From Flavobacteriaceae bacterium (GTDB lineage Bacteria > Bacteroidota > Bacteroidia > Flavobacteriales > Flavobacteriaceae): a stretch of DNA of 46,752 nt. The DNA lies in assembly GCA_021647835.1 (NCBI GenBank), contig JAKITY010000004.1, positions 1 through 46,752 of the forward strand, written 5' to 3'. This document shows, piece by piece, positions 692 to 10,102 of this stretch. The notes below the pieces were generated by a model. It saw only the letters and a list, made by a program, of their open reading frames with translations, was not told the origin of the DNA and did no database searches. Position 1 is the stretch's first letter; each line of letters starts with the position of its first letter. Both the position numbers and the translations under genes were made by a program.

Positions 692-1426
692 TTAGATACG
701 CTTATATACATCTTCAAAAGGGATTCTAAAACGCTCTCCATAAACTCCTTCAGGTTTTCTAATTCCACATGAAACAACCATATTGATTTCGCTACCATAA
801 GGTAAATCCAGTATTTTTTTAATTCGTAACGTATCTGCACCTTCCATTGGGCAAGTGTCATAACCTTCTGCAGCCATACTTAACATAAAGGTTTGTGCTG
901 CAAGTCCAGCAGTTTTGTGTGCTACAATTCTCATGTCCGAAGTTCGTAATTGTCTGTAACTTGGTTTGAAAAGTCCTGCAATCCAGCTAATAGCGTATTT
1001 TATATAGCCAAATAGTCCTAAGAAGTCAGCATAAGCAAAGGGGATAATTTTGGTGTAATATGTAAAAGCAAACTTCTCTCTTGATGAGTATTCACTCATT
1101 GGTTTTTTTCCGTACATTTTCTCCAAATTCTTTCGATGTGTTTTTACGCGCTTTCTCCAAAGGTCTTTTCGTACAACAAAAACAACCATTTCTTTTGCTG
1201 TTTTAGCAGCATTTTGACCTAAGCAAGCGCCTGTTAATTTTTCTAAAACTTCTTTAGATGTAACGTGATAGAATTCCCAAAGTTGCATATTGCTACTATT
1301 TGGTGCTAAAGTTGCCTGTTCGATACACTTTTTTACAATTTCAGAATCTATTTCGACGTCTTTATCATATATACGAACAGATCTTCGATAATTTAATGCG
1401 TCAATAAAGGAAGAATTTTTTTTCAT
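692..1426 (-). CDS. Nitroreductase family protein
   Basis: ORF 244 aa; N-terminal ...ALNYRRSVRIYD... and ...ATLAPNSSNMQLWEF..., C-terminal ...HKTAGLAAQTFMLSMAAEGYDTCPMEG typical of FMN nitroreductases. Confidence 0.85.
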   Translation of the reverse strand: MKKNSSFIDALNYRRSVRIYDKDVEIDSEIVKKCIEQATLAPNSSNMQLWEFYHVTSKEVLEKLTGACLGQNAAKTAKEMVVFVVRKDLWRKRVKTHRKNLEKMYGKKPMSEYSSREKFAFTYYTKIIPFAYADFLGLFGYIKYAISWIAGLFKPSYRQLRTSDMRIVAHKTAGLAAQTFMLSMAAEGYDTCPMEGADTLRIKKILDLPYGSEINMVVSCGIRKPEGVYGERFRIPFEDVYKRI

Positions 1427-2769: not shown

Positions 2770-4305
2770 ATGTCTATACGAAAAAAAGATGTATTATTTA
2801 CTTTGGTAAAATCGCTTTCTAAATCAGAAAAACGACAGTTTAAATTGTATGTTGGACGATTAGAAGGAAATTCGAATGCAAATTTTATAGCGCTATTTAA
2901 TATAATGGATAAATCATTGATGTATGATGAGCATTTAATTCTTCAAAAGACGAATATCAAAAAGCAACAGCTTTCTAATTCTAAGGCTCATTTATACAAA
3001 CAACTTTTAGTGAGTTTGCGTTTGAATCCTCAGCATCAAAATATAAGAAGCCAAATTAGAGAACAGTTAGATTATGCAACGATTTTGTACAATAAAGGTT
3101 TGTATAAACAGAGTTTGAAAATTTTAGACAAAGCAAAGAATATCGCCATAGAAAGCGAAGAAAATAATTTGGCTTATGAGATTGTAGAAATGGAGAAGGT
3201 TGTTGAATCTCAATATATTACACGAAGTTTGAGTAGCAGAGCAGATACACTTTCTGTGCAGGCAAAAGAGTTGACTATAAGGAATGTGATGACAAGTAAA
3301 TTGTCAAACCTTTCATTACAATTATATAGTTGGTTGTTGCAAAATGGTTATGCAAAAAGTACTGAAGATATAGAAACAGTAACAAAATATTTTGAATTGC
3401 ATATTCCTAAATATACAATTTCAGAATTAGGTTTTAAGGAGAAATTATTTTTGTATAAAGCATACTTATGGTACAGTTTAATTACTCAAGATTTTGTGAG
3501 TAGTTATCGATATTCTCAAAAATGGATTGATCTTTTTGATGAGTATCCTAAAATGAAAAAAATAAATCCTGTATTTTATTTGAAAGGATATAACTATTTA
3601 TTAGAATCTCTTTTTATGTTGAAATACACAAAGAAATTTAAAGAAATTTTCGCTAATTTTTCTTCAGATATAGAGCACAAGAATTTTTTGTTAAATGATA
3701 ATACAGAGGCAATGACTTCAGTATATTATCATCAGAATAAATTAAATAAGAATTTTTTAGACGCTAATTTCTCTGAAGGAATTGCTTGTATTCCAACAGT
3801 GTTAAAAGAGATAAATCATTTTAAAAATAAGATAGATGAACATCATATTATGGTGTTTTATTACAAAATTGGATGTATGTATTTTGGAGTTGCAGATAAT
3901 GAAAATTGTATTTTTTATCTCAATAAAATTATCTCAAATAAAGAGTTGGCAATACGTGAGGACTTATTGTGTTATGCTCGTGTACTTAATTTGGTAGCGC
4001 ATTATGAAGCTGGAATTGATGAAAACATTGATTTGTTAGTTAAATCTACTTATAAATTTTTAATCAAAATGGATAATCTACACATCGTGCAAAAGAAGAT
4101 GATGCAATTCTTGAGAAGTTTGACTGATATGTATCCAAGTGAGTTGAAATCAGCATTTAAAAAATTACATCAAGAATTAAAACAATATGAAAATCATCCT
4201 TATGAAAAACGATCGTTCTTATATTTAGATATTATTTCATGGTTAGAAAGTAATATTGAGGGGATTCCAATTGCTGAAGTTGTGAAAAGAAAAGTCTCTC
4301 TCTAA
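2770..4305 (+). CDS. Conserved hypothetical protein, predicted alpha-helical / TPR-like
   Basis: 511 aa ORF, full-length, no signal peptide; helical repeat-like composition (..YNKGLYKQSLKILDKAKNIA..). Confidence 0.7.
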   Translation: MSIRKKDVLFTLVKSLSKSEKRQFKLYVGRLEGNSNANFIALFNIMDKSLMYDEHLILQKTNIKKQQLSNSKAHLYKQLLVSLRLNPQHQNIRSQIREQLDYATILYNKGLYKQSLKILDKAKNIAIESEENNLAYEIVEMEKVVESQYITRSLSSRADTLSVQAKELTIRNVMTSKLSNLSLQLYSWLLQNGYAKSTEDIETVTKYFELHIPKYTISELGFKEKLFLYKAYLWYSLITQDFVSSYRYSQKWIDLFDEYPKMKKINPVFYLKGYNYLLESLFMLKYTKKFKEIFANFSSDIEHKNFLLNDNTEAMTSVYYHQNKLNKNFLDANFSEGIACIPTVLKEINHFKNKIDEHHIMVFYYKIGCMYFGVADNENCIFYLNKIISNKELAIREDLLCYARVLNLVAHYEAGIDENIDLLVKSTYKFLIKMDNLHIVQKKMMQFLRSLTDMYPSELKSAFKKLHQELKQYENHPYEKRSFLYLDIISWLESNIEGIPIAEVVKRKVSL

Positions 4306-4359: not shown

Positions 4360-4367
4360 TACGTTTG
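4360..4367 (+). promoter_or_regulatory. Candidate -7 element TACGTTTG of the ilv operon promoter
   Basis: Matches TAnnTTTG; lies 10 nt upstream of the leader peptide ATG. Confidence 0.5.
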
Positions 4368-4377
4368 TAATGAATTT

Positions 4378-4437
4378 ATGAAGAATACTATATTAAATAT
4401 CATTTCTATTATTGTCTTAGTGATTATTATCACTTAG
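4378..4437 (+). CDS. ilv operon leader peptide, 19 aa: MKNTILNIISIIVLVIIIT
   Basis: ATG AAG AAT ACT ATA TTA AAT ATC ATT TCT ATT ATT GTC TTA GTG ATT ATT ATC ACT TAG; 8 Ile, 2 Leu, 2 Val codons in 19; followed 40 nt later by a Rho-independent terminator and then ilvD. Confidence 0.88.
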   Translation: MKNTILNIISIIVLVIIIT

Positions 4438-4444
4438 ATGAATT

Positions 4445-4485
4445 AGGAATGTAATAATATTAACACATAAGATTATAGCCTTCCT
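4445..4485 (+). promoter_or_regulatory. Candidate antiterminator hairpin of the ilv attenuator
   Basis: aggaatgtaataat (4445-4458) pairs with attatagccttcct (4472-4485) at 12 of 14 positions (one G-U); the 3' arm overlaps the terminator 5' arm by 9 nt, so the two folds are mutually exclusive. Confidence 0.8.
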
Positions 4486-4506
4486 TGAAAAAGGGAGGCT
4501 TTTTTT
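4477..4506 (+). terminator. Rho-independent attenuator terminator upstream of ilvD
   Basis: agccttcctt-GAAA-aagggaggct (10-bp stem with one U-G, GAAA tetraloop) followed by TTTTTT. Confidence 0.9.
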
Positions 4507-4707
4507 ATGGATAAAATAATAGAGCTTTAAATGAATACGTATGATTAATGTATTTAAAAGCGAATTAAGTGTTTGAAAATAAATAAGTTAAGAGGGTTTA
4601 AAGACTTTTTAGTGTTGTAATAAAATAGAATACTCTTAAAAGAGGTGAATCTCTCAAAGTATTTTTGAACTTTATTCTAAAAAGAGAATGATAAATAAGA
4701 TTTAAAA

Positions 4708-6390
4708 ATGAAATTAAATAAACACAGTCAAAGGTTAACGCAAGATGAATCTCAGCCTGCATCACAAGCAATGTTGTATGCGGTCGGCTTGACAGATGAA
4801 GATATGAGTAAAGCTCAAATTGGAATTGCAAGTACAGGATACGATGGTAACCCTTGTAATATGCATTTGAATAACTTGGCTGCTGAAGTAAAAATAGAAT
4901 GTAAAATTGCTGATCTAGTAGGTTTAGGGTTCAATACAATTGGTGTTTCTGATGGAATTTCTATGGGAACTTCAGGTATGAATTACTCGTTGGCTTCTAG
5001 AGATATTATTGCAGATTCTATAGAAACAGTTATGCACGCTCAAAGTTATGATGCCTTGATTTCTGTTGTAGGCTGTGATAAAAACATGCCTGGAGCAGTG
5101 ATAGCGATGTTGCGTTTAAACCGCCCGTCAATTATGATGTATGGAGGGACGATTATATCTGGAAAATACAAAGGAAAAAAAATAAATATTGTTTCTGTAT
5201 TTGAGGCTTTAGGGCAAAAAGTGGCTGGAGAAATAGATGAAAAAGAATATAGAGAAATCATAAAAAGAGCAATTCCTGGAGCAGGAGCTTGTGGAGGTAT
5301 GTACACAGCAAATACAATGGCTTCTGCAATTGAATGTATGGGCTTTTCGTTGCCTTATAATTCTTCTATTCCTGCAGAAAATCCTAATAAATTATCCGAG
5401 AGCGAAAGAACTGCATTAGCAATAAAAAACTTACTAGAATTAGATTTAAAACCGTTAGATATAATCTCTAAAAAATCTATTGAAAATGCGATTACATTAG
5501 TAAATGCTTTAGGAGGTTCAACGAATGCGGTTTTACACTTTTTAGCAATAGCGCATGCTGCTGATATTGATTTTAGCTTAGATGATTTTCAGAAAGTAAG
5601 TGATAGAACTCCATTAATTGCAGATTTAAAACCATCTGGAAAATATTTAATGGAAGATGTTCATGGTGTTGGAGGAACTCCTACAGTAATGAAATATTTA
5701 TTAGATAATGGTTATTTACACGGAGATTGTTTGACTGTAACAGGAAAAACATTAGCAGAAAATTTAGAAAACGTAACACCTTTAACTTTTGATGATGCGC
5801 AAGATGTGATTTATCCAAAAGACAAGGCATTGAAATCATCAGGAAATATTCAGATTTTATACGGAAACCTTGCAGAAGAAGGCGCTGTAGCGAAAATTTC
5901 TGGTAATGAAGGATTGAAATTTGAAGGAAAAGCAGTTGTTTATAATGGAGAGCAAGCAGCAAATACAGGAATATCAAACGGAGAAGTAGAAAGAGGAGAT
6001 GTAGTCGTCATTAGATATGTTGGTCCAAGAGGAGGTCCTGGAATGCCAGAAATGTTAAAGCCAACTTCGTTAATTATGGGAGCAGGTTTAGGAAAATCTG
6101 TAGCATTAATTACAGATGGTCGTTTTTCTGGAGGAACTCATGGTTTTGTAGTTGGTCATATTACACCAGAAGCACAATCTGGAGGAACAATAGGGTTGTT
6201 AAAAACGGGAGATAAAATAAGTATAAATGTAGAAGAGAACTCTATCAATGTTTTAATTTCTGATAAAGAAATAGCAACTAGAAAAGAAAATTGGGTTGCT
6301 CCAGAATTAAAACACAAAAAAGGAATTTTATATAAATACGCAAAAACAGTTTCATCAGCATCTGAAGGTTGCGTAACAGATAAACTTTAA
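4708..6390 (+). CDS. ilvD: Dihydroxy-acid dehydratase
   Basis: 560 aa; [57 protein letters not shown] motifs. Confidence 0.97.
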
Positions 6391-6392
6391 TC

Positions 6393-8087
6393 ATGAGCAC
6401 ACAAAAAATAACAGGAGCAGAGGCAGTAATTAAATGCCTTTTAGAAGAAGAAGCAAACCTAATATATGGTTATCCTGGAGGCGCAATTATGCCAATCTAT
6501 GATGAAATATATAAATATCAAGATAAATTACAACATGTTTTAACTCGTCATGAACAAGGCGCAGTACATGCTGCACAAGGTTTTGCGCGTGCAACAGGAA
6601 AAGTTGGTGTCGCAATGGCAACTTCAGGTCCTGGAGCAACAAATTTAATTACAGGAATTGCAGATGCTCAGATTGATTCGACACCAATAGTTTGTGTTAC
6701 AGGTCAAGTAACACGTCATTTATTAGGTTCTGATGCCTTTCAAGAAACAGATATTATTGGTATTTCTACACCTGTAACAAAATGGAATTATCAGATTACA
6801 AGAGCAGAAGAGATTCCTGAAGTGTTGGCAAAAGCGTTTTATATCGCTCGTTCTGGTCGTCCTGGACCTGTTTTAATTGATATTACTAAGAATGCTCAAT
6901 TGGAAGAACTCGATTTTTCGTATAAAAAGTGTAAAGGAATTAGAAGTTATCAGCCAAAACCAATTATTGATGCTGCAAAAGTACAAGAAGCGGCAACTGT
7001 CATTAATAATGCAAAAAAGCCATTAATAATTTTTGGTCAAGGAATTATTTTAGGAGAAGCAGAGAAAGAATTAAAAGCATTTATTGAAAAGACAGATATC
7101 CCTGCAGCATGGACTATTTTAGGCTTGTCAGCATTAGAAACAAAGCATCCTTTGAATGTAGGAATGGTTGGAATGCACGGAAATTATGCGCCAAATGTTT
7201 TAACCAATGAATGTGATGTTTTGATCGTTTTAGGAATGCGTTTTGATGATCGAGTTACAGGAGATTTGAGTAGATATGCTAAGCAAGCAAAGGTAATTCA
7301 CTTCGAAATTGATCCAGCCGAAGTTGATAAAAATGTAAAAACAGATGTTGCTGTTTTAGGTGATGTAAAAGAAACGTTAGCGCAAATTTTGCCATTGATT
7401 GATAAGAATAATCATGATGATTGGAAAGAAGAATTCAAGGAGAAAGAAGCCATAGAATTTGATAAAGTAATCAAAGAAGATTTATACCCAACAAAAGAAG
7501 GCTTGACAATGGCTGAGGTTGTTGAGCAAATAAATATTGCTTCAAATGATAATGCTATTATTGTTTCGGATGTCGGTCAGCATCAGATGTTTGCGTGTAG
7601 ATATGCGAAATTTAGTCAGACAAGAAGTAATATTACTTCTGGTGGATTAGGAACAATGGGATTTGCGCTTCCTGCAGCAATTGGTGCTAAAATGGGTGTT
7701 CCAAATCGTGAAGTTGTTGCGGTTATTGGTGATGGAGGTTATCAAATGACAATACAAGAATTGGGAACTATTTTTCAAACAAAAGTACCTGTAAAAATAG
7801 TAGTGCTAAACAACGAATTTTTAGGAATGGTACGTCAATGGCAAGAATTATTTTTTGACAAGCGTTATGCATCAACCGAAATGGCAAATCCAGATTTTGT
7901 AACCATTGCAAAAGGGTATCATATTGAGGCAAATAGAGTTACGGAAAGAGAAAATTTGGTATCAGCAGTTCAAAATATGATGGCTTCAAAAGAAGCGTAT
8001 TTTTTAGAAGTATGTATAGAAAAAGAAGATAATGTATTTCCGATGATTCCAACAGGAGCATCAGTATCAGAGATGAGATTAAGTTAA
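6393..8087 (+). CDS. ilvB: Acetolactate synthase large subunit
   Basis: 564 aa; YGYPGGAIMPIYD, GDGGYQMTIQELGTIFQ ThDP motif; in ilv operon. Confidence 0.97.
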   Translation: MSTQKITGAEAVIKCLLEEEANLIYGYPGGAIMPIYDEIYKYQDKLQHVLTRHEQGAVHAAQGFARATGKVGVAMATSGPGATNLITGIADAQIDSTPIVCVTGQVTRHLLGSDAFQETDIIGISTPVTKWNYQITRAEEIPEVLAKAFYIARSGRPGPVLIDITKNAQLEELDFSYKKCKGIRSYQPKPIIDAAKVQEAATVINNAKKPLIIFGQGIILGEAEKELKAFIEKTDIPAAWTILGLSALETKHPLNVGMVGMHGNYAPNVLTNECDVLIVLGMRFDDRVTGDLSRYAKQAKVIHFEIDPAEVDKNVKTDVAVLGDVKETLAQILPLIDKNNHDDWKEEFKEKEAIEFDKVIKEDLYPTKEGLTMAEVVEQINIASNDNAIIVSDVGQHQMFACRYAKFSQTRSNITSGGLGTMGFALPAAIGAKMGVPNREVVAVIGDGGYQMTIQELGTIFQTKVPVKIVVLNNEFLGMVRQWQELFFDKRYASTEMANPDFVTIAKGYHIEANRVTERENLVSAVQNMMASKEAYFLEVCIEKEDNVFPMIPTGASVSEMRLS

Positions 8088-8091
8088 AATT

Positions 8092-8619
8092 ATGGAAACA
8101 AAAGAGACATATACAATATCTATTTATACCGAAAATAATATCGGATTGTTAAATAGAATTTCAGCAATTTTCCAAAGAAGACATATAAATATTGAGAGCC
8201 TTAATATTTCAAAATCTGAAATAAAAAGTGTTTCAAGATTTACGCTGTTAGTGAAAATTACAGAAGTAGAAGTTAAAAAAATTATTGGGCAAATCGAAAA
8301 GCAAGTAGAAGTTATAAAGGCGTATTATCATACAGATGAAAATACAGTATATCAAGAATCATGTCTGTTTAAATTAAGTTCAGATTTATTGATTGATAAT
8401 GATGAAATACAAAATATTATTAACGATAGTAAAACAAAAGTTATCAATGTGAATAAGGAGTTTTTCGTACTCAAAAAATCAGGAAAAAAAGAAGAAATAG
8501 AAGAATTGTATCACATTTTAGAAAAACATGGAATTATGCAGTTTGTCCGTTCAGGACGTATTGCAATTACCAAAAACAAAATGGATATATCATCAATAAT
8601 AGCAACTTATAATAATTAA
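8092..8619 (+). CDS. ilvN: Acetolactate synthase small subunit (ACT domain)
   Basis: 175 aa; [36 protein letters not shown]. Confidence 0.94.
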
Positions 8620-8623
8620 AAAA

Positions 8624-10102
8624 ATGACAAATTATTTTAACACACTTTCATTAAGAAATCAATTAGCACAATTAGGCGTTTGTGAATTTATGAATAGTGC
8701 TGAGTTTTCAGAAGGAATCTCAAAATTAAAAGGAAAAAAAATCATAATCGTTGGTTGTGGTGCGCAAGGATTAAATCAAGGGCTAAACATGCGTGATTCA
8801 GGATTAGATATTTCGTATGCATTGCGTGAAGGAGCAATTAAAGAAAAACGCCAATCGTATAAAAACGCAACAGAAAATGGCTTTACAGTCGGTACTTATG
8901 AAGAACTAATTCCAACAGCAGATTTAGTGTCAAATTTAACTCCAGATAAGCAACACGTAAGTGTTGTAACAGCAATAATGCCATTGATGAAACAAGGTGC
9001 AACACTGTCATATTCTCATGGATTTAACATTGTAGAGGAAGGAATGCAAATTCGTAAAGATATTACTGTAATTATGGTCGCACCAAAATGCCCTGGTTCA
9101 GAAGTGCGTGAAGAATATAAAAGAGGATTTGGAGTGCCAACATTGATTGCTGTGCATCCAGAAAATGACCCAAATAGTGAAGGGTTTGAACAAGCAAAAG
9201 CGTATGCAGTTGCAACAGGAGGAAATAGAGCAGGAGTTTTAAATTCGTCATTTGTTGCGGAGGTGAAATCAGATTTAATGGGTGAACAGACTATTTTATG
9301 TGGTTTGTTGCAAACAGGATCTATTTTATGTTTTGATAAAATGATTGAAAAAGGGCTTGATGCAAATTATGCTTCAAAATTAATTCAATATGGATGGGAA
9401 ACTATTACGGAAGCCTTAAAATATGGAGGAATTACCAATATGATGAATCGATTGTCAAATCCTGCAAAGATAAAAGCATTTGAATTATCAGAAGAATTAA
9501 AAGGAATTATGCGTCCGTTATTTCAAAAACACATGGATGATATTTTAAGCGGTCATTTTTCTAAAATAATGATGGAAGATTGGGCAAACAATGATAAAAA
9601 TTTACTGACTTGGAGAGCCAAAACTGGCGAAACATCCTTTGAAAAAACTTCAGCAACAGAGCAAGAAATTTCAGAGCAAGAATATTTTGATAACGGAGTT
9701 TTAATGGTTGCAATGGTAAAATCTGGAGTGGAATTAGCATTTGAAACGATGATAGAAGCAGGGATTATTGAAGAGTCTGCATATTATGAATCATTACATG
9801 AATTGCCTTTGATTGCCAATACAGTTGCGCGCAAAAAACTATTTGAAATGAATAGAATCATCTCAGATACTGCAGAATATGGTTGTTATTTATTTGATCA
9901 TGCGTGTAAGCCTTTATTGACTGATTTTATGAAAAATATAGATACTGATGTTATTGGTGAAAAATATGGAGCAGACAAATCAAATGGAGTTGATAACGAA
10001 GAATTAATTTTTGCAAACGAAAGTATCCAATCGCATCCAATTGAAGAAATTGGATATGAGTTAAGAGCCTCAATGACTGAAATGAAAAAAATAATTACGT
10101 AA
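8624..10102 (+). CDS. ilvC: Ketol-acid reductoisomerase, long class II form
   Basis: 492 aa; [49 protein letters not shown]. Confidence 0.97.

Follow-up and report, generated by a model that had tools for sequence, protein, structure and literature searches.

The question raised by this locus is whether a short branched-chain-rich ORF and a hairpin lying ahead of an ilv operon in a Flavobacteriaceae bacterium act together as a ribosome-mediated transcription attenuator. In the window (the whole 46,752-nt stretch of DNA that was analysed), the leader peptide ORF MKNTILNIISIIVLVIIIT occupies positions 4378–4437 of the forward strand and runs from ATG to TAG. Its 19 residues include 8 Ile, 2 Leu and 2 Val (12/19), and both the coordinates and the composition given for this 20-codon frame in an earlier note on the DNA were correct. 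After a gap of 39 nt, the leader stop is followed by an intrinsic terminator (strands 3:4; 4477–4506, forward strand), which consists of a 10-bp stem, AGCCTTCCTT-gaaa-AAGGGAGGCT, and a T-run, with a hairpin energy of −15.4 kcal/mol. The presence of a terminator between leader and ilvD, as the same note had it, was borne out by a terminator search, in which two overlapping matches were found against 0.2 expected from shuffles. The leader RNA (137 nt) had a folding z of −7.0. Protein family matches likewise agreed with the gene order ilvDBNC after the terminator, all on the forward strand: ilvD (dihydroxy-acid dehydratase, the first regulated gene; 4708–6390; TIGR00110, 721.6 bits), ilvB (acetolactate synthase large subunit; 6393–8087; TIGR00118, 708 bits), ilvN (acetolactate synthase small subunit; 8092–8619; TIGR00119, 100.7 bits) and ilvC (ketol-acid reductoisomerase; 8624–10102; PRK05225, 929.9 bits). 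Further upstream of the leader, leuA (1457–2620) is located on the opposite strand, and no leader was seen in its upstream region on reading by eye. Between leuA and the leader there is a forward-strand gene (2770–4305) that resembles the BT2802 family weakly, scoring 110 of 550 bits.

We examined 181 ilvD upstream regions drawn from the genus and family and from named genomes, scanning for an Ile/Leu/Val-rich ORF whose stop adjoins a strand complementary to a terminator. The full unit, comprising this ORF, the antiterminator strand and the terminator, was found in 75 of the 181 regions, whereas five sets of shuffled regions gave 0–2 units per set and control stretches gave 3 in 2205, two of these three resembling genuine leaders further upstream. 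Thus, the arrangement of leader and terminator exceeds chance. In relatives, the leader has about 20 codons, with the consensus MKKQILNIISIIVIVIISQR, and is followed by a GCCTTCC..GGAAGGC terminator. Leader lengths differ by whole codons. Substitutions exchange Ile, Val and Leu among themselves and preserve the T in the middle of the codon; in a set of 30 leaders with the same number of codons, the second codon position was the least diverse (0.20), followed by the first (0.32) and the third (0.37). The earlier note had proposed an alignment of relatives in which branched-chain codon runs would be conserved and the stem would show compensatory changes. Both were found: Ile/Val codon runs are conserved, most of all at the second codon position, and the arms of terminator and antiterminator co-vary across lineages. 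The description of the leader as rich in Ile, Leu and Val held for Ile and Val, which dominate (31.6% and 14.1% of ilvD leader residues), and did not hold for Leu at just 6%; the sensing of Leu is thus unsupported. A covariance model built from 28 relatives (R1), with both the window and the ilvD relatives closest to it left out, placed its best site in the window's genome at positions 4366–4504 of the window (E-value 5.7e-7; the next had 0.03). Of 150 family genomes searched with the same model, 53 gave matches, most of which lie a few hundred nt upstream of ilvD, and 97 gave none.

Three rival helices are supported by folding and comparative evidence: a protector hairpin, the antiterminator and the terminator. 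In the fold of the window's leader RNA, the protector hairpin (strands 1:2; 4401–4451, forward strand) uses leader codons together with the antiterminator strand, pairing 4401–4408 with 4444–4451, 4412–4417 with 4436–4441 and 4419–4424 with 4429–4434, with an outer helix of 4390–4395 and 4455–4460. The antiterminator hairpin (strands 2:3; 4445–4485, forward strand) pairs AGGAA (4445–4449) with TTCCT (4481–4485) and 4451–4452 with 4478–4479, besides AT-rich inner pairs, and is modest in the window (−7.0 kcal/mol). Across loci, the antiterminator strand starts on the leader stop codon or close to it; the main group reads TAG GGAATGG and another group TGA TACAG. This strand pairs better with its own terminator arm than with the arms of other loci (mean duplex energies −8.67 and −6.69 kcal/mol, respectively; 0 of 5000 permutations, also within the main group alone), and pair counts in 28 aligned sequences gave 81% paired, a score equalled in 0 of 500 shuffles. 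Because relatedness among the sequences remains in the permutation tests, a stronger argument is that entire arms have been replaced together in separate lineages, for example TCCCTTTA with AAAGGGAT and GCCGTTC with GAATGGC. The outer and inner helices of the protector each gave 0 of 5000 permutations (42 sequences), and its pair counts were weaker and less clear than this result. In view of these counts and of a ribosome-free state that varies among relatives, the protector hairpin was rejected as a general feature.

Equilibrium folding of the entire transcript gave the terminator every time and was uninformative; the switch must therefore be kinetic, as in known attenuators. We instead folded the window transcript cut at 4489, before the terminator 3′ arm, with a ribosome footprint. 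The antiterminator pairing was 0.04 with no ribosome (protector 0.94), 0.24–0.53 with the ribosome on codons 1–4, 0.73–0.94 on codons 5–19 and 0.00 at the stop codon. Codon 5, the first branched-chain codon, is also the earliest position that fully frees the antiterminator. For the block at the stop codon to occur, the footprint must extend some 12 nt or more beyond the A site; at 10 nt, the block fails. Among relatives, pairing with no ribosome was variable (median 0.40–0.61), and the difference between stalled and stop positions was at least 0.2 in 79 of 80 ilvD units; this contrast is a consistency check and not independent proof, because it results in part from the position of the antiterminator at the stop codon.

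From these folds and the sequence we infer the start site, translation, stalling and starvation response of the window leader. Transcription would start a few nt 5′ of the leader ATG, and a ribosome would trail RNA polymerase through the Ile/Val-rich leader. With charged Ile-tRNA and Val-tRNA at hand, the ribosome would reach the stop codon (4435–4437) and cover AGGAATG (4445–4451), so that the terminator forms and transcription ends. When Ile or Val is scarce, it would stall on some codon between 5 and 18 and break the protector hairpin; the antiterminator strand thereby freed would pair with the terminator 5′ arm, and polymerase would proceed into ilvD. If the ribosome were absent, the antiterminator strand would be held in the protector hairpin and the terminator would form. 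We judge that positions 4360–4506 very probably constitute a classical ribosome-mediated transcription attenuator of ilvDBNC, the reading that the earlier note had offered and that conservation, covariation of the arms and footprint folding favor.

Two other explanations of the same features should be weighed here. The terminator might just end the upstream BT2802-like gene, which has the same orientation and extends to 4305, and the short ORF might be a chance Ile-rich frame in a gap that is AT-rich and in which Ile codons are common. We consider this very improbable, given that the unit is conserved over many genera with Ile and Val kept while codons change, that antiterminator strand and terminator covary, that the chance rate is about 3 in 2205, and that other operons bear the same plan with matching codons (see below). 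Still less credible is a riboswitch or T-box with direct sensing of a ligand or uncharged tRNA and no translation of the ORF. Such an element could be suspected from the strong structure of the leader RNA and from weak, subthreshold resemblances to rnk_leader (30.6 bits against a gathering score of 50) and Phe_leader (22.9 against 55). However, at gathering score the Rfam search of the window returned tRNA alone and no T-box, riboswitch or leader family, and the pattern of conservation is a coding one, with length changes by whole codons, residues kept and codons tracking the regulated gene.

A third possibility concerns the weight of the attenuator rather than its existence, and depends on the promoters. 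The predicted first promoter has a −7 box, TACGTTTG (4360–4367, forward strand), read from the sequence as the Bacteroidota consensus TAnnTTTG; TAnnTTTG at −7 with TTTG near −33 has been reported as the Bacteroidetes consensus (PMC7366714). Measured from the end of its TTTG, this box lies 8–12 nt before the leader ATG in 38 of 70 first units, and in 21 of 49 a TTG stands exactly 20 nt before the box. The corresponding −33 position reads TTCG in the window and TTTG in relative L003. Because the −7 box is so near the leader ATG, the predicted 5′ UTR is just a few nt long; 5′ UTRs shorter than 10 nt occur in approximately 3.7% of cases in B. thetaiotaomicron (PMC7366714). A candidate second −7 box, TATTTTTG (4660–4667, forward strand), lies between terminator and ilvD, and may start transcripts past the terminator that bypass the attenuator, an outcome that the earlier note counted against its reading. 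Of 45 clade loci, 41 (5.6 expected) contain TAnnTT[TC]G within the 160 nt that precede ilvD, and these include loci that have no attenuator. If most ilvDBNC transcription came from near 4660, the attenuator would be real and its effect small in this lineage. We regard this as rather unlikely: no −33 TTG was found at a fixed spacing from the second box, whereas the relatives' first promoter has such an element, and the fact that all three helices have been maintained speaks for an attenuator that matters. Lacking a −33 partner, the second box appears weaker than the first promoter. In the same interval (4507–4707 of the window), TGATTrrTGTA is found in the window's group, and the counterpart stretch of the sister clade has conserved TTTTGAACATCATAAAA and TGAATTTAAC; together with the −7-like box, these motifs possibly represent a second promoter or an operator.

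The ilvDBNC attenuator belongs to a known class, that of amino acid leader-peptide attenuators. Attenuation of this kind is best documented in Proteobacteria and Actinobacteria, and most Bacteroidota mRNAs have no Shine-Dalgarno sites. In the E. coli ilvGMEDA (ilvL) and ilvBN attenuators, a leader with branched-chain codons and alternative hairpins including a terminator precede the structural genes. The locus described here shares the branched-chain-rich leader, the alternative hairpins and the terminator ahead of structural genes; it differs in its ilvDBNC order, its predicted Bacteroidota promoter and the closeness of its ATG to the predicted start (a few nt), and no sequence relation is apparent, as judged without alignment. 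Both E. coli operons are named in PMC1183508. The comparative survey by Lopatovskaya et al. 2010, which deals with attenuation, may contain earlier predictions for Bacteroidota. The Bacteroid-trp RNA (RF01692), a Trp leader of Bacteroidetes (PMC2864571, PMC6414381), is also a leader-peptide attenuator of this phylum; unlike the present one it senses Trp, and its model had no match in the window or the whole genome. The Corynebacterium ilvBNC leader and ilvB-II motif (PMC10272879) similarly place a branched-chain-rich leader and a terminator before ilv genes, and the C. glutamicum leader reportedly forms without a ribosome binding site, according to a title cited in that paper; this system, however, is actinobacterial, and no Rfam match joins the two. 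In the open literature, with subscription journals largely outside the search, we found no Ile/Val, His or Asn leader in Bacteroidota; the leader peptides described there were Trp leaders (PMC2864571, PMC6414381) and unexplained short ORFs (PMC7366714).

The weaker matches of model R1 included the same chassis re-coded, with Asn-rich, Thr-rich, His-rich and Ile-rich leaders: MRNNNNNNNFNNPNT before a gatC-like gene and gatA, MNTQLHHHHSHICSQANRK before hisG, MKHIITNTTTTTTGTS before thrA, and Ile-rich leaders before ilvA, ilvE (Ile/Val) and an ilvN-like gene. Other weak matches (L236, L237, L242 and L245) were no leaders. In a survey of gatA, the Asn-rich unit preceded gatCA in 11 of 18 loci. The Asn leader reads MxNNNNNNNFNNPNx and is followed by the antiterminator and terminator of the chassis (L238, L239, L241, L243, L252, L253, L255, L256 and L259–L262); Asn made up 68.0% of gatA leader residues. 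The gatA protein scored 431.6 bits, below the TIGR00132 cut-off of 481.1, and is therefore best named GatA-like, and gatC was assigned by eye. An Asn-sensing attenuator on a tRNA-dependent amidotransferase would be unusual. Of 31 family loci surveyed upstream of hisG (L293–L322 and L247), 29 had a His-rich leader (for example MTFIQLHHHHFHTCTQAS), an antiterminator and a terminator, with His at 25.6% of leader residues. The hisG arms have a sequence of their own (ACCCGTTTGAG with CTCAAGCGAGGT), so that the likeness at hisG is one of plan more than of sequence. As for thrA, the chassis unit with a Thr-rich leader was found in just 1 of 31 loci, and thrA was rejected as a regular target. Most thrA genes (L325–L352) are preceded by a Thr/Ile-containing ORF of about 15–40 codons, in many cases with TTPLG or TTLWG as its last residues. 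The stop is accompanied by a hairpin, for example ACCCCTTTGGGGT, that lacks a T-run; this is a different kind of leader. The ilvA leaders carry Ile only and the ilvD leaders Ile and Val, as the pathways predict. As read from the sequences, the codons of the putative leaders match the regulated gene: His for hisG, Asn for gatCA, Ile for ilvA, Thr for thrA and Ile/Val for ilvE. Neither hisG nor a close gatA was found in the window's genome, which is 69% complete.

Two leader–terminator units before ilvD were observed in 13 loci, eight of which were detected by program (L011, L014, L025, L035, L049, L052, L143 and L161) and five by eye (L109, L141, L152, L159 and L178); the window has a single unit. 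As a rule, the second leader follows closely on the first terminator and has no promoter box of its own; in most of these loci the arms of the second unit (CCTGTATCA with TGATACAG) are unlike those of the first. Two attenuators per leader, as in some of these relatives, are also known in Salmonella mgtCBR (PMC3641672), whose signals differ (ATP and proline), whereas both leaders of the tandem ilv loci are Ile/Val-rich. We consider it likely that one Flavobacteriaceae chassis, with near-leaderless ORFs and an antiterminator strand round the leader stop, has been re-coded for each amino acid, including an Asn-codon attenuator at gatCA that apparently senses the product of the amidotransferase, and that the differing antiterminators of tandem ilv attenuators avoid cross-pairing. 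Across this large family, attenuation looks like a common means of controlling the synthesis of Ile/Val and of His, and perhaps also Asn-tRNA formation. It offers a function for unannotated short genes and provides test cases for transcription–translation coupling in Bacteroidota; of specialist interest are the codon-swapped set and the tandem form.

In three genomes of the window's genus (G013, G010 and G012; loci L011, L012 and L014), ilvD is approximately 69% identical to that of the window, and two of these loci bear both the strongest model matches of the genus and tandem units; this combination suggests that operon and attenuator were replaced together. In Chitinophaga and a [Flexibacter] (L057 and L074), longer leaders, Asn-rich and then Ile/Val-rich (MKGNNNNTNTNRIIAGLSSVLSIVVVIIVVIIRHQVGG), are located about 1.2–1.8 kb upstream of ilvD. 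Besides, a SAM-II riboswitch was found near the ilvD region in two relatives (L100, positions 940–1021, reverse strand; L115, positions 3656–3745, forward strand).
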